From NCBI GenBank assembly GCA_019237205.1, contig JAFAHO010000267.1, positions 1 to 34,472 on the forward strand: a stretch of DNA of 34,472 bases, given 5' to 3'. Source of the DNA: Hyphomicrobiales bacterium. Its GTDB lineage: Bacteria; Pseudomonadota; Alphaproteobacteria; Rhizobiales; Beijerinckiaceae. Position numbers and translations under genes: made by a program. The notes under the pieces are model-generated. The model was not told the DNA's origin. It was given only the letters and a program-made list of their open reading frames with translations, and ran no database searches. Shown here piece after piece: positions 12,650-33,484 of this stretch. The first letter of the stretch is position 1; every line of letters begins with the position of its first letter.

Positions 12650-15600
12650 TCAGCCCATGAGCTGGGGCGCTTTGAGCGCCTCAAGCAGCGTCAGGGCCTC
12701 GTCGATCTCCGGCAGCGCCGGCGTCGGCGAGAAGCTTTCCAGCGCCGCGGCGAGAGCGGCGGCCGCCTCGGCGGAACGATGGCTCGAATTTCGCAGCTTC
12801 GCCAGCGCCAGCGCGGCCCTGAGGCCGAAAATGCGCGATCCCTGCCCGAGCGCGACCGCGATCGCGGTCTCGAAAGCATCCTCGGCGGCGGCGAACCTGA
12901 CGGGATCCGCGGCCGAGAGGAATTCGCCGCGGATGCGATAGAGCTCCGGGTCGGACCAGCGCTCGCCCGTCTCGTGCGCGAAGCGAAGACCTTGGTCGAC
13001 CAACGCCAGCGCCCCGGCGCGATCTCCAGACTCTGCGACGAACTTGCCGAGAAGACCGTGGAAGTAAGGCGTATCCGCCTTTGCGCCCTGGTTCGTGTAG
13101 ATCGCCAAAGCGCGCCGGAAGTCGGTCGCGCCTGAGGCGCCCCCGGTGGTCCGGCCGCGCGCCCAGGAGGCGATCACGTCGCCGAGGGCCAGGTAGAACG
13201 CCATGGCGTTCTGCCTGGCGAGGCCAGAGTAAACCTCGACAGCGCGCATCGCCGCCGCGGGATCGTCGCGCCGGACGTCAAGTCTGGCCTTGAAGGCGCA
13301 CACGTTGACGACCGTCGGGACATGGCCGGCCTCGAGCGCCTGCGTGACCGCACGGCTCATCAGCGTATTCGCGCGCTCGACGTCGCCGAGATGCCACAAG
13401 GCGAGCGAGAGACAGGCCGCAGCGGCGCTTGCGGTGTCGACGCTGAATCGGTGCCGCGATTCGTGGTCCCGATCCGGCTCGTAGTCGGCAAGCGTTTTTT
13501 CGAGATGGCTTCGCGCGGTCGCAAACTCCCCCTGGGAGAGACAGGTCAGGCCGAGAACGCGTCGGGCGGCGCCGGCCTCCATGGCCCGGTTTTCCGCCTC
13601 TGCTTCAGACAGGAACGCCTCGGCCGCCTTGCGAGCGGAGCGCAATTCGCCCCGCGTATAGCTTCGGACCCATCGGCCGTTGTACTCGCTGAACCGCTCC
13701 CGTGCGTTTGCGCTTTGAGCGGCAAGTTCACGAACGCGAGCGAAGGCGGCCTTCGTCTCTTCGACCGGGAAACCCTTGGACCACATCAGCGCCTGCGCAT
13801 AGTCGGACTGCAGCTTGAGCCGCCGGCTCGATGCGGGGAACGCGGCCGGCGCGTGAGTCGATTCCCATTCATCGGCCAGTTGGATCGCCTTGCCGAGGTG
13901 CGCGATTGCTTCTCGGAAAGCCGAATGGCGCAACGCCTCTTCGCCGGCCTGGGCCCACCATTCGATCGCGAGATCCGCTCGGCCCGCCTGCGTGAAGTGA
14001 TAGGCGATGGTCTCGGGCTCGACAGGCGCTCGAGCGTCGCCGGAATCGCGCAACGCCTCGGCGGCGCGCAGGTGCAGCGCCAGCCGGTCTCTCATGATCA
14101 GAGTCTCATAGGCCGCGTCCTGGATCAAAGCATGCTTGAATTGATAGGAGGCTTGCGGCGGCGCGCCCGCGACGACCAGAATGTCTGCCGCGGTCAAGCG
14201 CGCGAGCGAAGCCTGCAATGAGGCATCCGGCAGACCGGAAACGTCGCGCAGAAGCACATACGAGAACTCTCGTCCGAGGACTGAGCCAATCTCGGCGATT
14301 TCGCGCGCTGCGGCCAACCCGTCGAGCCGCGCCGCGAGCGATTGCTGAAGGGTCGGTGGGATCGCGTCCACGTCCGACTGCTCGCCGCGTTCGAGAATGA
14401 GCCGCGTCACTTCTTCGACGAAGAGAGGCACGCCCCCTGTTCGCTCGCTGACGTAATCGATGACGTTCCTCGCTAGCGAGCGGCCGGATGCAAGCGCGTC
14501 GACCATCATCCGCACCTCTGTCGAATCCAGAGGCGCAAGGTCGATCAGCGCGTGGTGCGGGCGCGGGGTCCACGGCGCGCTAAACTCCGGGCGCGCGGTG
14601 GCGACGATGAAAAGCGGCGCCCCGGCTCCCGATTCGGCGAGCGTAGAGAGAAGGTCGAGCGAGGTCGGATCGGACCACTGCAGATCTTCGACGACTAGAA
14701 CGAGCGGCTGCGCCCGCGATCCTGCCATGATCCAGGACTCGATCGCGGCAAATTGACGCCGGCGCAATTCATCGGGCGCGGCAGTCTCGACACGGGGGGA
14801 CGGCAGGGGAATGTCAACCAGCGGCGCGATCACCGGAGCGATGGCCTCGAGCCCGACCGCCGTCAGCGCCTTTTCCAGTTCAGCCAGCCGCTCGGCCGGC
14901 GCTTCTGCGGCGTCGAAGCGTTGTCGCCCCCATTCGGTGATCGGATGGAGCGGCGAATTCTGCAGAAGTTGTGAACAATTCCAATCGATCCAGGTGTAAG
15001 GGGCGACGGACAGCCGTGCGTGGAATTCCCACAACAGTCTCGACTTGCCGATGCCGGGTTCGCCGACGACCAACGCAAGTTGGCCTTCGCCCGCCCGGGC
15101 GCGCTCCCAGCGGCTCATTAGCAGCGCGAGTTCTTCTTCGCGGCCGGCAAGCGGGGTCAACGGCCGCGCGCCAGACTTTCGCCGGCCGGTGGCGACACGG
15201 AGGATGCGATAGAGATTGACGGGTTGCGGCACGTCCTTGAGGTCGCAGGCGCCTCGATCCTCGACCACGAACAGCCCGGCGACCTGACGCTGGACGTTGC
15301 CAGTGACGAGCACGGAACCGAGCTCGGCCGCCGCCTCAACGCGCGCGGCGATGCTGGAGGCTCTTCCGAAAACCCCGCCCATCGAATCGACCACCATCTT
15401 GCCCGAATCGAGGCCGATCCGGGCGGAAAGCTTTGCCGCATGGTGCCTGGCGGACTTGGCGTTCAGCGTCCCGATCGCTTGCTGGATGGCGAGGGCGGCG
15501 CGCACCGCGCGCTCCGCGTCGTCCTCCCGCGCCTGCGGGTAGCCGAACACCGCCATCAGGCTGTCGCCCAGCCCCGGCATGACCCGCCCGTCAAACTTAC

Positions 15601-15952
15601 GAACCGCGGCTGAGGCCGCGTCCAGATAGGCGCCGAAAAAATTGCGCCAATCTTCCATCTCGAATTGCGCCGCCACCTTCGACGTCTCGAAATCGCAAAA
15701 GAGGAATGTGATCGGGCGACGCTCGACCGCGGCGGGAGTCGGACGAGCGCAGGCGGGGGAACCGACGCGAGAAGGCGTTTCGAGATCTGCGATCGCCTGC
15801 ATCAGGCGCTTGCGCGACCCGAGCGACATTCCAAGTCTCTTTAGATCGGCTTCCGTCAGCTCAGGCAGCACGTCCCAGTCGATCTTGCGTTCGCGAAACA
15901 TGGCCGCGTATTGGCCGAGGGCAACACTGTGGAGCCACTTGCCGACTGTCAT
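12650..15952 (-). CDS. SAM-domain / class III cyclase-like / AAA ATPase / TPR signalling protein
   Basis: A 1100-residue multidomain protein. A SAM domain (residues 1-57) is followed by a class III adenylate/guanylate cyclase-like domain (80-250), an AAA-type ATPase with Walker A GEPGIGKS (297-304) and a VVEDLQWSD Walker B-like motif, then about 500 residues of TPR-like helical repeats. The cyclase domain keeps the metal Asp87 and Asp130 (GD). It has Pro126 where the substrate Lys is expected in K-x-x-GD, and Ser200 where the catalytic Asn is expected before AAR (Arg204 is kept). A nucleotide-binding loop also appears shortened (GGVFGRASS). It may therefore be a regulatory pseudo-cyclase. The protein is presumably cytoplasmic, and its partner is unknown. 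Confidence 0.9.
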   Translation of the reverse strand: MTVGKWLHSVALGQYAAMFRERKIDWDVLPELTEADLKRLGMSLGSRKRLMQAIADLETPSRVGSPACARPTPAAVERRPITFLFCDFETSKVAAQFEMEDWRNFFGAYLDAASAAVRKFDGRVMPGLGDSLMAVFGYPQAREDDAERAVRAALAIQQAIGTLNAKSARHHAAKLSARIGLDSGKMVVDSMGGVFGRASSIAARVEAAAELGSVLVTGNVQRQVAGLFVVEDRGACDLKDVPQPVNLYRILRVATGRRKSGARPLTPLAGREEELALLMSRWERARAGEGQLALVVGEPGIGKSRLLWEFHARLSVAPYTWIDWNCSQLLQNSPLHPITEWGRQRFDAAEAPAERLAELEKALTAVGLEAIAPVIAPLVDIPLPSPRVETAAPDELRRRQFAAIESWIMAGSRAQPLVLVVEDLQWSDPTSLDLLSTLAESGAGAPLFIVATARPEFSAPWTPRPHHALIDLAPLDSTEVRMMVDALASGRSLARNVIDYVSERTGGVPLFVEEVTRLILERGEQSDVDAIPPTLQQSLAARLDGLAAAREIAEIGSVLGREFSYVLLRDVSGLPDASLQASLARLTAADILVVAGAPPQASYQFKHALIQDAAYETLIMRDRLALHLRAAEALRDSGDARAPVEPETIAYHFTQAGRADLAIEWWAQAGEEALRHSAFREAIAHLGKAIQLADEWESTHAPAAFPASSRRLKLQSDYAQALMWSKGFPVEETKAAFARVRELAAQSANARERFSEYNGRWVRSYTRGELRSARKAAEAFLSEAEAENRAMEAGAARRVLGLTCLSQGEFATARSHLEKTLADYEPDRDHESRHRFSVDTASAAAACLSLALWHLGDVERANTLMSRAVTQALEAGHVPTVVNVCAFKARLDVRRDDPAAAMRAVEVYSGLARQNAMAFYLALGDVIASWARGRTTGGASGATDFRRALAIYTNQGAKADTPYFHGLLGKFVAESGDRAGALALVDQGLRFAHETGERWSDPELYRIRGEFLSAADPVRFAAAEDAFETAIAVALGQGSRIFGLRAALALAKLRNSSHRSAEAAAALAAALESFSPTPALPEIDEALTLLEALKAPQLMG

Positions 15953-28346: not shown

Positions 28347-30590
28347 ATGCCCGTCGACATACTCACCAATCGATACTCTCCAAGCCGCGCCGGGGTGAAC
28401 GATCGGGAAGCGACGCTGATGAAGAGGCGGATCGATCCCGCCGGCTTCGGCAAGCTCTTTGCCAGGACAGTCGACGGCGACCTTTACGCCCAACCTCTCA
28501 TCGTGAGCGATCTCACCATCGCGGGACGCAAGCGCAACGTCGTTTACCTCGCAACCTCCCGGAATTGGGTTTATGCCTACGATGCGGACGATCCGCTCGA
28601 CTACCTGCCGCTATGGACTCGGCAGCTCGGTCAGGCGGTTCCGCGCGACGCGATCGAGAAGGGATATCTCAACTTTGGCGGAGAGGTGGGCATCACCAGC
28701 ACGCCGGCGATCGATCGTGCCGGGGCAGGAGGCACGATCTTCGTAGCGACCAAGACGATGGAGGGCGACCGCGACAGGCCGTCATTTGCCTATCGACTCC
28801 ACGCGATGGACATCTTGACGGGCGAAGATCGGGCCCCGGCTACCCCGATAGAAGCGGCGCTCAAGGACCGTCCGAACGTCCGATTCGATGCGCGGCTGAA
28901 TCTCAACAGGCCCGGGCTGCTGCTGCAGGACAACGTCGTCTATCTCGCCTTCGGATCGCATGACGACACGGGAGACTATTTCGGCTGGATTTTGGCCTAC
29001 GACGCCGCGACGCTCGCTCAGATCGCAGCCTACGCCACAGCGCCGGAGTGGGGCGAGGGCGGCGTCTGGCAGTCTGGCACGGGTCTAGCCGCGGACGCCG
29101 ACGGCTGCGTCTACGCGGTTGTCGGCAACGGGCGAAGCCCTGAAGAAAACCTCGAGAAACGGCGACCGCCGCTGAAGGCGCCGCCGCGGGTGGAAGCGCC
29201 CGTCTACGGCAATGCGATACTGAAGCTGAAGCTCGACCGCGACGCGGGCGTCTTGCGCGTCGCCGATTGGTTCACTGCATCCGACGTATTCGACCTCAAC
29301 CAAGTCGACAATGACTTCATCGGCGGGCCCGTCCTCTTCGAGCGGCCCGGGCCGCGGGGAACCGTCGAGCGCTATGTTCTCGGCGGCGGCAAGGACGGCA
29401 AGTTCTATCTCGCCGACCGCGACAACATGGGAAAATGGACCCCGAAGGGGGACACGTCGATCCTGCAAGCCGATCAGTTCTGCACATTCCATATTCACGG
29501 CGCGCCGGTCGTTTGGCATAAGTCCGACCGCGATATTCGCGCCTTCGTGTGGAGCGAGAAAGACGCGCTGAAGGCCTTCCGGCTCAAAGGCCGGCGCTTC
29601 GAGACGACCCCACAGTCGATGAGCGAATACCGGCTGCCGACCAACGAGCTCCGCATGCCGGGCGGCATCCTGACCCTCTCGTGGGACGGCAAGCGTCCCA
29701 ACACGGCTGTGCTGTGGGCCGTTCATTCGACGCGTGAGGACGCCATGAACAAGACTGTGGCGGGAACCCTGCGCGCTTACGATCCGCTCGACCTTACGGA
29801 TGAGCTCTGGAACAGCGACATGGACGCCGCGGAGGCGGACAAGCTGGGCAACCTTGCGAAATTCTCGCCGCCGGTGGTCGCAAACGGCAAGGTTTATGTC
29901 GGCACGTTTTCTCGCGAACTCGTCGTCTACGGCCTGCTCGGAAAGGGACGGCGTCGGTACGATCTCGGCATTTTCGAGCTTCGCAACATCGGCGCCGACG
30001 TCATCAAGTCCGGCCGCCGCGCGGGGGGACGCTACGAACTGCGCATGACCGGCGCCGGCATCGGCACGCCGGACGAGGGTTTTCTGTTCGCCAATGTCGA
30101 CCGCGACCCGAAGGACGGCGTGATCACGATAGTGGCGCGCGTCGACGGCATCAACGCATCCGTGCATCCGGAAGCAAGGGCCGGGCTCATCATGCGAAGG
30201 GGCTTCGACAAGGAGGAAGGGTTCGCGGCCCTGGTCGTGTCGAAGGAAGGCAAGGCGACGTTTCTCTGCCGCGAACAACCCCCTGCCGCTTCGCCCGCCT
30301 TGCCCACCCGACAGACAGACGCGCCAAGAGCGTTGACCTTTCCGATCGCGCTGAGACTGATGATCAAGGGGGCTGACGGCCTGCCAGGATCGGTTCAAGT
30401 GACGGCCGAGACTTCCGGCTCCGTCGCAGGACCGTTCCAGGCCGTCGGCGAACCGGCCCAACTGCGTCTCGACGTCGATGAGAGCATCGACCTCAAGGTT
30501 GGACTTTGCGCGACCGCGCAAACGGCCGGGCCAATCACGGAATCGGCGCTCCCGGCCTGGGTGCGGTTTTCGAAAGTCGTCGTCGCCTAG
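28347..30590 (+). CDS. PQQ-repeat (quinoprotein-like) beta-propeller protein with C-terminal lectin-like domain
   Basis: 747 residues. The N-terminal 530 or so residues have the quinoprotein-like propeller pattern: an NRYSPSRAGVNDREATL opening, GDLYAQPLIVSDLTI, VVYLATSRNWVYAYDADD, repeated VYLA/VYAV blades and VVANGKVYVGTFSRELVVYGL. Residues from about 538 form a beta-sandwich like the concanavalin-A or 'regulation of enolase' domain (RYELRMTGAGI, GVITIVARVDG, ARAGLIMRRGF). Related proteins are usually secreted, yet no signal peptide is present: the propeller begins at residue 8 and a TGA at 28284 closes the frame upstream. No alcohol dehydrogenase active-site signature was recognised. It converges on the S10-S53 protease gene, with 35 nt between the stops. 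Confidence 0.75.
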   Translation: MPVDILTNRYSPSRAGVNDREATLMKRRIDPAGFGKLFARTVDGDLYAQPLIVSDLTIAGRKRNVVYLATSRNWVYAYDADDPLDYLPLWTRQLGQAVPRDAIEKGYLNFGGEVGITSTPAIDRAGAGGTIFVATKTMEGDRDRPSFAYRLHAMDILTGEDRAPATPIEAALKDRPNVRFDARLNLNRPGLLLQDNVVYLAFGSHDDTGDYFGWILAYDAATLAQIAAYATAPEWGEGGVWQSGTGLAADADGCVYAVVGNGRSPEENLEKRRPPLKAPPRVEAPVYGNAILKLKLDRDAGVLRVADWFTASDVFDLNQVDNDFIGGPVLFERPGPRGTVERYVLGGGKDGKFYLADRDNMGKWTPKGDTSILQADQFCTFHIHGAPVVWHKSDRDIRAFVWSEKDALKAFRLKGRRFETTPQSMSEYRLPTNELRMPGGILTLSWDGKRPNTAVLWAVHSTREDAMNKTVAGTLRAYDPLDLTDELWNSDMDAAEADKLGNLAKFSPPVVANGKVYVGTFSRELVVYGLLGKGRRRYDLGIFELRNIGADVIKSGRRAGGRYELRMTGAGIGTPDEGFLFANVDRDPKDGVITIVARVDGINASVHPEARAGLIMRRGFDKEEGFAALVVSKEGKATFLCREQPPAASPALPTRQTDAPRALTFPIALRLMIKGADGLPGSVQVTAETSGSVAGPFQAVGEPAQLRLDVDESIDLKVGLCATAQTAGPITESALPAWVRFSKVVVA

Positions 30591-30625: not shown

Positions 30626-33484
30626 CTATCCCTCCGCGCGAGCTCGGTTGCGTCTGCGCGCGACGTGCTTCGGCCGCTCGGACCGATGCTGCTCCGTACG
30701 ACGCGCGTCTTCTGCCTGGGCCGCCGGCTTGCCGGCGGGAGCGGCGGACTGGGCGTTGAACAGCGCCGCGAGTTTGACCCCGATCGGCGACCCAAGTCCG
30801 CTGCAGGGATCAGGGCCGGGCATGGCGCGGTAAAAGCCGTTGTCGCCCGTGACGATGTCGGTGAAGCTGGTCTGGTTCAGCCAGAGCTGCGGCGTAATCA
30901 GCCGCTGCGGCGTCGCCGAGCTCAGCTTGCGTCCGAAAGCCGCGAACAATCCAGCATAGAGCGGTGCGACCGCGCTCGTGCCTCCGAACGACAACGCCTG
31001 GCCGTGGACGACGATGTTATAGCCGGTGTTCGGGTCGGCGTTGGCCGAGACGTCGGGAACCATGCGGCCTGGCCCGTGCGGCGCGCCCGCCTGCCAGAGC
31101 GGCATCGGCACGAAGATCGTCGAGAAGCCGCCGCCGGTCCCGTTGCCGTTGGCGTTGCCGGGATCGTCGTTCCACGCGGTTTCCTCGCCTCCGCCATGCG
31201 GCTTCATCGTGCCGCCGCAGCCGATGACGAACGGCGATGACGAGGGTAGATCGACGTTGGCGGGAGTGGGTCCGCCGTCGCTGGAATCGTTGTCGCCTGC
31301 GGCGGCGAAGACGGACATGCCGGCCTTAGCCGCAGCCTGCGCAGCGGCGTTGAGCTTGCCGGCGTAGTCGACCCCGGCCTGAGACCCGGCGGCCTGCCAG
31401 TTGGCCTCATCCGAGCCCCAGGAGATCGAGCAGACGTCGCATCCGTCCGCCGCGGACGCAGCGATGGCGAGCGCCATCGAGCCCCAGTCGTTTGGGTCAG
31501 CCCAATAGACGCGGATGGCCGCCGCGGCGCCCGTCGCGACGCTATAGGCGGCGGCGGCGACTTCGATGTCGAGCGCGACCTCGCCGTCCGAATTAATGGA
31601 CGGATCGCCGCCAGGGTCGGGATTGTTGACGCCGGCGCCGATCGGCACGTCGACGATCGTGGGTTTGGGAAGCGCGGCCTTGGCGAAATAGGCGTCGATG
31701 TCGGACTGGACCCAGCCGCCGCCCAATTCGATGATTCCGATCACGCCGCCGCCCGCGAGGCCCTTCGGCCACGAATAGGCTGCGCAGAGGGCGGCGACGT
31801 CCCAGGTCTCAGCCCCCGCCAGCGAGGGCCGGATGGCGCCCGAGCCCCGAAGGATAAAATAGGGACGGATCGGATTGCGGACAGTGCGCGGCATCGCCAG
31901 GACGCGGCGCGCACGCGCAGCGACCATGGCGCCCGACGCATCGTACATCGCGGCGAGGTCGGCCTTGAGCGCGGTGCGCGAATTGCCGTCCAGATAGATC
32001 ATGTGGCCGGAGGGATAGTTGCGGATTGTCAGATTGGCGCGCGCCTTCGGGTCCTTCAGCGGCATCGCGTCCAAGGTCAGTTTGGTCTGATAGAACGGCG
32101 TGACGGCGTCGAAATAGCCGTTCGCCGAAAGCACGAGCAGATCGGGATTGGCGGCCATTGTCGCGGCGAGGTCGCCCGCCGTGTAAAGGGTGGGGTTGCC
32201 CTGGCCGTCCGGCGTCTGGATCGCGCCGGCCGGGTCCTTGTGGCGGAAATCCCAGAACTGGAACGCCTGGTCGTTGAGGTCGACGAAATTCGAGAGCGCG
32301 GTAAACAAGAGCTCGGTGTTGAGGTAGTTGTTCCACATCGCGGTGTAGACGCCGCTGACGGCGGCCATGGTTGGATCGTTCATGCCGCCGTCGGGCAAAA
32401 CGACGGCTGCGATGCCGGTGTCGATGCCCTTCACGCGCCCGTCATAGGATCCCAGCGCGAGGCCTTGATCCTGCAGCAGGGTGATGAGGAACGCCGAATG
32501 TCCGAGCCGGTCGGAGGTCTCGACATTGAGGCCCCAGGCGGTGAGCACATTCGCCGGCAGGCCGAGATACTGGCTCAGCGTCTGAACCGTCGCGGGGTCG
32601 GCCTGCGGAAAGGCGGCGAGCGCTTGCGCGTAGGGTCCCGTCGAGAATTGCGTCACTGTATCCATGAAAGTCGGCAGATCCGCCGGCGGCGGATTGAGGC
32701 CTGTCTTCTGATGATACCAGGCGTCCGCGGCGTACGTCGGCATGAGCCCGGGCGCATTGCTGAAGTTCGCCGGATAGTCGAGAACGCTCGACTGCAGGGT
32801 GACGCCATTGAGGTCGATTCCGTCCTCGTGCAGCATCCAGGCGAGCACGCAGCTGCGCGCCGTGCCATAGGATTCGCCGAACAGGAATTTCGGCGAGTTC
32901 CAGCGGTTGTTGGCGGTGAGGTACCGCTTGATGAATTGCTTGATGGACAGCGCGTCCTGATCGACGCCCCAGAAGTCGCGGTTCTTGAACGGCGCGATCG
33001 CCGCCGAATAGCCCGTCCCTGCCGGATTGATGTAGACGAGGTCGCTGCGATCGATCAGGCTGTCGGGATTGTCCTCCATCGTATAGGGCGGAGGCGGGGT
33101 GAAGCCCGGCATGTTCGTCTTGATGCGGCGCGGCGCAAACGAGCCGAGCATGAGGAACACGGCGGACGATCCGGGACCGCCGTTGTAGAAGAACGTCACC
33201 GGGCGCGTCGACGGCGCCGCGCCGTCGGCGGTGAAGGCGACATAGAAGAATTTCGCTGCGGGTTTCGAGCTCGACGGATCGACCGCGACGAGATGGCCCG
33301 CAGTCGCGGTATAGGGGATCGGAACGCCGCCGATCGTCACGGTGTGATGGGTGATCGCGGCGGCCTCGGCGACGTCCGTGATCGAATCGTCGGGGCCGGA
33401 GCCGTAGGCGGTGGTGTCGAGAAGCGGTTGATCGGCGGCTGCGGGCTGACCGAATCCGGCGTGGGCCACAATCGCATTGGCCAT
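30626..33484 (-). CDS. Fused serine carboxypeptidase (S10) / sedolisin (S53) double protease
   Basis: 952 residues carrying two complete serine peptidases. Residues about 40-515 are an S10 carboxypeptidase: NGGPGSS (101-107, oxyanion), GESYG (nucleophile Ser205), NGYFDAVTP (Asp459) and SGH (His494). A short basic linker (about 521-545) leads to an S53 sedolisin/kumamolisin domain (about 545-912) with Glu635 and Asp639 in GEVALDIEV, Asp731 in AAGDN, nucleophile Ser837 in GGTSAVAP, and the C-terminal calcium site (DIVTG near 876 and DPCSGLGSP near 892). Both triads are intact. The S53 pro-domain is absent, no signal peptide is seen, and the C-terminus is Arg-rich. GGGAGG upstream supports the ATG. 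Both families usually work at acid pH. The arrangement is unusual. Confidence 0.9.
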   Translation of the reverse strand: MANAIVAHAGFGQPAAADQPLLDTTAYGSGPDDSITDVAEAAAITHHTVTIGGVPIPYTATAGHLVAVDPSSSKPAAKFFYVAFTADGAAPSTRPVTFFYNGGPGSSAVFLMLGSFAPRRIKTNMPGFTPPPPYTMEDNPDSLIDRSDLVYINPAGTGYSAAIAPFKNRDFWGVDQDALSIKQFIKRYLTANNRWNSPKFLFGESYGTARSCVLAWMLHEDGIDLNGVTLQSSVLDYPANFSNAPGLMPTYAADAWYHQKTGLNPPPADLPTFMDTVTQFSTGPYAQALAAFPQADPATVQTLSQYLGLPANVLTAWGLNVETSDRLGHSAFLITLLQDQGLALGSYDGRVKGIDTGIAAVVLPDGGMNDPTMAAVSGVYTAMWNNYLNTELLFTALSNFVDLNDQAFQFWDFRHKDPAGAIQTPDGQGNPTLYTAGDLAATMAANPDLLVLSANGYFDAVTPFYQTKLTLDAMPLKDPKARANLTIRNYPSGHMIYLDGNSRTALKADLAAMYDASGAMVAARARRVLAMPRTVRNPIRPYFILRGSGAIRPSLAGAETWDVAALCAAYSWPKGLAGGGVIGIIELGGGWVQSDIDAYFAKAALPKPTIVDVPIGAGVNNPDPGGDPSINSDGEVALDIEVAAAAYSVATGAAAAIRVYWADPNDWGSMALAIAASAADGCDVCSISWGSDEANWQAAGSQAGVDYAGKLNAAAQAAAKAGMSVFAAAGDNDSSDGGPTPANVDLPSSSPFVIGCGGTMKPHGGGEETAWNDDPGNANGNGTGGGFSTIFVPMPLWQAGAPHGPGRMVPDVSANADPNTGYNIVVHGQALSFGGTSAVAPLYAGLFAAFGRKLSSATPQRLITPQLWLNQTSFTDIVTGDNGFYRAMPGPDPCSGLGSPIGVKLAALFNAQSAAPAGKPAAQAEDARRTEQHRSERPKHVARRRNRARAEG

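Follow-up and report, generated by a model that had tools for sequence, protein, structure and literature searches.

A gene in a 34,472-nucleotide stretch of DNA from a Hyphomicrobiales bacterium (assembly GCA_019237205.1, contig JAFAHO010000267.1; the whole stretch is referred to as the window) encodes a single protein in which a serine carboxypeptidase domain of family S10 is followed by a kumamolisin-type peptidase domain of family S53. The gene, located at 30626..33484 on the minus strand, is a single open reading frame (ORF) of 952 codons followed by a stop codon, displays no internal stop and is supported by ten further intact fusions, so that the uninterrupted frame reported by the sequence-only reading of this DNA is found again in same-frame, full-length homologues of other genera. 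The gene is interpreted here as the fused form of a conserved partnership for acid protein digestion, in which an S53 endopeptidase of the sedolisin/kumamolisin type would open new C-termini and an S10 carboxypeptidase would trim them. In Burkholderiales the presumed partners are adjoining genes, usually an S53 with its pro-domain and then the S10, whereas in Hyphomicrobiales and in one acetobacterial metagenome-assembled genome (MAG) they form one chain with the S10 first, in the seat of a lost globular pro-domain. Fused or paired, the two enzymes probably digest protein jointly in acid. Both activities, the acid optimum and the joint digestion are deduced from sequence, and acid use is proposed because both families are of the acid type and both domains are acidic.

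Domain organization and active sites

The S10 domain spans residues ~18–515 (31940..33433; minus strand, as are all other features of the gene). Pfam Peptidase_S10 matches residues 73–207 (E 1.1e-11), residues 78–241 match human cathepsin A (protective protein) among Protein Data Bank (PDB) sequences (E 4.4e-5), and Foldseek relates the domain to cathepsin A, Kex1 and carboxypeptidase Y. It is followed by an interdomain linker of variable sequence and net charge +7 (residues 516–560; 31805..31939) and by the S53 domain (residues 561–912; 30749..31804), which is devoid of a globular pro-domain. This second domain is matched by Pfam Peptidase_S8, of the subtilase clan, at residues 658–860 (E 5.3e-8), and residues 535–911 match kumamolisin among the PDB sequences (E 2e-59). 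A basic and poorly conserved C-terminal tail (residues 913–952; 30629..30748) closes the protein, and an NCBIfam scan of the fusion protein gave no match. The AlphaFold2 (AF2) model, built with 62 related sequences, displays two mostly well-formed domains, with a mean predicted local distance difference test (pLDDT) of 81.9 and 114 residues below 50; in Foldseek it aligns with kumamolisin-As (E 2.9e-21, TM-score (TMt) 0.73) and with human cathepsin A (E 5e-14, TMt 0.66).

All seven catalytic residues that the sequence-only reading had assigned were correct, and their positions were verified at codon level. In the S10 domain the nucleophile Ser205 of the GESYG motif (32870..32872), Asp459 (32108..32110) and His494 (32003..32005) are invariant in 11/11 intact fusions and in 29/29 separate S10 rows. 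Similarly Glu635 (31580..31582), Asp639 (31568..31570), the oxyanion-hole Asp731 (31292..31294) and the nucleophile Ser837 of GGTSAVAP (30974..30976) of the S53 domain are invariant in 11/11 fusions and 22/22 separate S53 rows; the roles of the kumamolisin residues E78/D82/S278 and Asp164 are given in PMC5935664. Judged by sequence and model, the S10 half fits MEROPS family S10, with a Ser-Asp-His triad, an α/β-hydrolase fold and GESYG, and the S53 half fits MEROPS family S53, with a Glu/Asp/Ser triad, the oxyanion Asp and a subtilisin-like fold. Carboxylate recognition in carboxypeptidase Y presumably involves the Asn of NGGPG, the Glu of GES and one more Glu; Asn101 and Glu204 of the S10 half are invariant in 11/11 fusions. 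Close to the C-terminus of the S53 domain, Asp876, Gly890 and Asp892, which we take to be calcium-site positions, are invariant in 11/11 fusions and in 21/22 separate S53 rows. A calcium site is present in sedolisins, as stated in PMC6278154.

The fused S53 catalytic domain is 38–40% identical to those of kumamolisin and kumamolisin-As (MEROPS S53; PDB 1t1e and 1sio), with which it has in common the Glu-Asp-Ser triad, the oxyanion Asp, the calcium-site residues and the linker motif between pro-domain and mature enzyme. In contrast to kumamolisin it has no globular pro-domain, is preceded by an S10 enzyme and carries indels common to the 11 fused S53 rows, such as a shortened loop after WQAGAPHG. 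The S10 half shares the α/β-hydrolase fold, GESYG, the Asp/His pair and NGGPG with cathepsin A, Kex1, carboxypeptidase Y and bacterial enzymes annotated ‘peptidase S10’, but falls in a separate bacterial clade, most of whose sampled members are linked to an S53, and bears an S53 at its C-terminus.

The gene pair and its fusion

The partnership is most clearly seen in Burkholderiaceae, where S10 and S53 were searched separately because the scan of GTDB representatives described below is biased to loci with both halves. A set of 200 genomes was searched with the Paraburkholderia xenovorans S10 (cut-off E 1e-150) and S53 (E 1e-60) and the positions were then compared. An S10 orthologue (identity to the query 74% or more) was found in 90 of the 200 genomes, and in all 90 an S53 lies within 3 kb of it, upstream on the same strand in 88 and convergent in two; the gap between the matched stretches has a median of 211 bp and reaches at most 2076. 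Only one of 36 S10 paralogues (57–64% identity) from the same genomes adjoins an S53. The S10 of the Burkholderiales pair is 66–70% identical to the S10 half encoded in the window. The pair thus has the same partners, although it differs in consisting of two genes, usually S53 and then S10, and in having an S53 that carries a pro-domain (example P0006) and is only 37–43% identical to the fused S53. In the one paralogue with an S53 nearby (L153:4845–8321; G932, Burkholderiaceae) the S10 gene is directly followed by that of the S53, which stems from another lineage, in the order of the fusions.

The fusion itself is represented by 11 distinct intact copies including that of the window, the other ten being 61–77% identical to it and distributed over Hyphomicrobiales and one acetobacterial MAG; hosts include Rhizobium dioscoreae, Mesorhizobium, Phyllobacterium, Lichenibacterium and a Rhodopila MAG. 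The sequence-only reading would have been refuted by homologues that are two genes in every relative; they are two genes in Burkholderiales but one in these 11 cases. Within the genus of the window the fusion occurs in 2 of 11 genomes, the window's own and G005 (Roseiarcus fermentans DSM 24875). When the best two candidates per genome were scored, the family (397 genomes) yielded four full-length fusions from three genera, the copy in the window among them; the remaining three are 77, 70 and 62% identical to the window protein over the matched stretch. In the order, likewise 397 genomes, only G000 and the frame-shifted G467 match at E 1e-110, which indicates that the fusion is rare. Among the best 80 loci of 572 relatives in the scan of GTDB representatives, ranked by similarity to the whole fusion and so favouring loci with both halves, ten are a single S10-S53 ORF (the S53 of one of these, L055, is broken) and one, L062, has this arrangement with a frame shift. 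Separate same-strand genes with the S53 upstream of the S10 account for 66 loci, L065 being cut by a contig end, convergent S53 and S10 genes for two, and a single ORF with the S53 ahead of the S10 for one (L128, a MAG). The junction of L128 still has a methionine matching the start of separate S10s, so its stop codon may simply have been lost, and a single MAG carries little weight. The two genes are separate in an Acetobacteraceae MAG (L112). The frame-shifted fusions are broken in the S10 half in L062 (Mesorhizobium sp. CA8) and in the S53 half in L055/L155 (B2-4-15). On a plasmid of Rhizobium sp. AB2/73 (L133:5156–6349) the S53 half and the linker are retained and the S10 half is lost; the flanks are 98–100% identical to the fusion locus of Rhizobium dioscoreae (L052).

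Trees were built from selected rows, 46 for S10 and 36 for S53. In the S10 tree, 34 rows of this kind group together (support 100/100) and exclude 12 further S10s, some of them on long branches. In the S53 tree all 12 fused rows, L133 among them, likewise group together (100/100), although their stem measures 1.82 changes per column. No such clean grouping is seen for the fused S10s: their tree requires three changes of the label ‘fused’, and at least two are forced by its strong branches because the paralogues L153 and L154 nest among the fused S10s (86/82 and 99/97); the position of L058 has no support. Both trees are most simply read as a single fusion followed, in the line of L153 and L154, by splitting or replacement, a history that goes beyond what the S10 tree shows by itself. 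Pairwise dN/dS values (Nei-Gojobori, five pairs, some with dS above 1) are 0.06–0.17 for S10, 0.07–0.25 for S53 and 0.13–0.43 for the linker; by this measure both halves are under purifying selection in the five tested pairs. The conserved pairing, together with the fusion, suggests that the S53 and S10 enzymes very likely form a functional pair, and the endo-/exopeptidase division of labour put forward by the sequence-only reading gains backing from both.

A different fusion, also of an S53 to an α/β hydrolase and also in Hyphomicrobiales, is found in Methylocella tundrae (WP_134493105.1), but its partner is a C-terminal class 3 lipase and its pro-domain is retained. This protein of 896 residues (plasmid 2, L163:3989–6676) comprises pro-kumamolisin, S53 and PF01764 regions, its S53 region is 45% identical to P0006 in tblastn, and its gene adjoins one for a patatin-like phospholipase.

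The junction and the fate of the pro-domain

The sequence-only reading had noted that the S53 pro-domain is missing, and indeed none of the four fusions scanned contains PF09286 (Pro-kuma_activ), the large N-terminal domain that is usual in family S53 and is present in all six S53s scanned outside the fusion (P0005, P0006, L128, L153, L162 and L163). The point of loss can be located through the linker. The PDB alignment with pro-kumamolisin starts at residue 535, against the end of the pro-domain, and pairs RPYF (residues 540–543; 31856..31867) with RPHF, the motif that marks the border between pro-domain and mature enzyme in separate S53 zymogens. Counted towards the N-terminus from the first core-strand Glu, a P[HY]F motif, picked after the alignments had been inspected, is 43–46 residues away in 11 of the 13 fused rows and 41–46 residues away in 63 of 76 separate S53 rows. 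The 13 rows include the broken L155 and L062; L065 could not be anchored, and duplicates, near-copies and the half-fusion L133, nine loci in all, had been excluded beforehand. When the linkers were shuffled 2000 times the motif fell in register in a mean of 0.11 of 13 rows and in two at most. The fused rows mostly have [RH]PYF in place of the RPHF of the zymogens. The presence of the motif in register in most copies points to an S10 joined at the end of the globular pro-domain, and the S10 thus appears, from the sequences, to have been attached there with the linker inherited.

Sedolisin prosegments help folding and the linker is then removed at low pH, and the human prosegment inhibits its enzyme; core-only sedolisin paralogues are reported from some fungi (all from PMC6278154). 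In 11/11 fusions the linker is flanked by acidic domains (net charge −15 to −23 for S10 and −13 to −19 for S53) and itself carries +4 to +9. In pro-kumamolisin the linker occupies the cleft. It is possible, though tentative, that the basic RPYF linker acts as a pseudo-substrate in the acidic S53 cleft and is cut by the enzyme itself at low pH to give two enzymes; a low-confidence linker combined with an inherited motif of the processing type makes self-cleavage reasonable. A more elaborate and doubtful version has the S10 folding first and silencing the S53 through the RPYF linker in the cleft, until a cut at low pH would free both enzymes 1:1 from one zymogen. A tethered, uncut enzyme is equally compatible with the AF2 model, and the linker and S53 fragment modelled alone (predicted TM-score (pTM) 0.85, linker pLDDT ~43–53) speaks neither for nor against cleft binding. 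Among ATG starts, an internal start yielding the S53 alone was rejected, as no Met is conserved in residues 516–575 and 7 of 12 rows have none there (L059 repeats P0004).

Several observations weigh against joint acid digestion by a pair joined in this way. The model gives no firm S10-S53 orientation (pTM 0.64), and the linker has pLDDT below 50 at residues 535–557. Position 112 of the S10, placed by eye, is Met in two fusions and Leu in nine, and not the Glu that we take to belong to the carboxylate site of carboxypeptidase Y. Four Burkholderiaceae genomes have an S53 match and no S10 orthologue, and a plasmid of Caballeronia zhejiangensis carries an S53 with no S10 alongside; set beside the 90/90 pairing, these indicate that the S10 clade goes with S53, while S53 can do without S10. 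Two of the 13 fused rows are devoid of P[HY]F, Lichenibacterium having no clear counterpart and the Rhodopila MAG RPYV, and of the two separate S53s that join the fused S53s in the tree (L043 and L112; 98/92) one has RPRF and the other no counterpart, so that inheritance of the linker is best judged against the Burkholderiales zymogens and kumamolisin. Finally, a crude hydropathy check, a single measure on start codons chosen by hand, revealed no Sec/Tat-like N-terminus in 12 fused rows and six separate partners: the N-terminal maximum over 12 residues is at most 1.1, against 1.6–2.3 in four exported-type controls. Export, if any, would thus follow a non-evident route, and an extracellular role would have no visible one.

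The joining of S10 at the border of pro-domain and linker, where the globular pro-domain had been, makes it plausible that S10 substitutes for it, and a reading in which it does so chiefly, serving S53 as an intramolecular chaperone and inhibitor while its own peptidase activity takes second place, is the most serious alternative, although unlikely. PF09286 is encoded nowhere in six of seven fusion-bearing genomes (E 0.01; several are drafts, and the copy in G467 is broken), the seventh, the Rhodopila MAG, having it in a separate S53; supply of a pro-domain in trans was rejected on the same six genomes. The long stem of the fused S53 clade would also be expected if old pro-domain contacts had been released. 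Such a secondary role is at odds with the invariant S10 triad and with the pair formed by the window and Roseiarcus fermentans, in which S10 is more constrained than S53 (dN/dS 0.17 versus 0.25), and AF2 offers no confident arrangement of S10 on S53. Moreover, the Burkholderiales S10 stands beside S53s that have a pro-domain, as in P0006, so that the pairing is not explained by replacement.

The sequence-only reading itself had pictured a chain that stays whole and works processively, S53 cutting and S10 trimming the new C-termini with no release in between. Two intact active sites in one polypeptide and the conserved linkage agree with it, but the pair consists of two separate proteins elsewhere, the linker retains a zymogen-type motif and is modelled at low confidence, and no model has the active sites facing each other, which together leave processivity rather improbable.

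Gene surroundings, origin and significance

Outside close pairs of strains the fusion gene stands alone. No conserved neighbour was found in 12 fusion or half-fusion loci when ORFs of at least 90 residues were compared, a size that a short precursor peptide would escape; near-identical neighbours are common only to L052/L133, L056/L061 and L054/L062, and the remaining matches are mostly ABC transporters at 21–51% identity. In Mesorhizobium sp. CA14 (L054:1503–7774) an ABC exporter, an HlyD-like protein, a Sel1-repeat protein and a 212-residue ORF lie upstream of the fusion, as they do in L062. The ABC/HlyD pair, of the type I secretion type, in these two sister strains is a possible export route, as a lead only. 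An extracellular Rhizobium etli protein has a ‘serine-carboxyl peptidase’ domain according to PMC2964644, but a link to the fusion family could not be made. Neither a phage match nor a relative among viral contigs was found for the fusion, and promoter and terminator scans gave nothing above shuffled sequences. In the window, a 747-residue ORF without a match in Pfam (E up to 0.1) or NCBIfam is convergent with the fusion gene (28347–30590, plus strand), and a protein of 1100 residues with SAM, guanylate-cyclase-type and AAA ATPase domains is encoded at 12650–15952 (minus strand).

Both the solitary position of the gene and the secretion-type set upstream in the two Mesorhizobium strains would suit a pair that acts on a specific substrate, be it a peptide for maturation or a host or fungal protein, in place of general acid digestion. 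The 12 loci hold no conserved partner gene of the size compared, and we consider such specialization improbable. That a lost stop codon or an assembly join merged two genes deserves next to no credence, for although two-gene relatives exist, the draft genome of the window comprises 459 contigs and one separate pair in S10-S53 order is known (L153), an artefact is refuted for the family by 11 distinct intact fusions, including those of G070 and Mesorhizobium AR07 (a 2-contig genome or complete chromosome), by a fused order unlike that of 88/90 Burkholderiaceae pairs and by the absence of the pro-domain from the fused S53s.

No description of an S10-S53 fusion or of an S53-S10 gene pair was found in the literature searched, outside which most subscription papers fall, and the accessible text of PMC11878206, on α/β hydrolases, makes no mention of the fusion. 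The S10 and S53 families are both known; the apparent replacement of a pro-domain by a complete enzyme, at the edge of the linker, is the most unusual point. Under the reading preferred here, a fused or paired S53 and S10 for joint acid digestion, two families from unrelated clans are tied into one functional unit, and their linkage recurs as same-strand pair, convergent pair, fusion and, in one MAG, an ORF of opposite order. The fusion also offers a natural experiment on the function of sedolisin pro-domains, the globular part having been lost in evolution and the linker mostly retained. If it truly is a self-contained acid endo- and exopeptidase, it would be of interest for the degradation of acid-stable proteins such as gluten and collagen.

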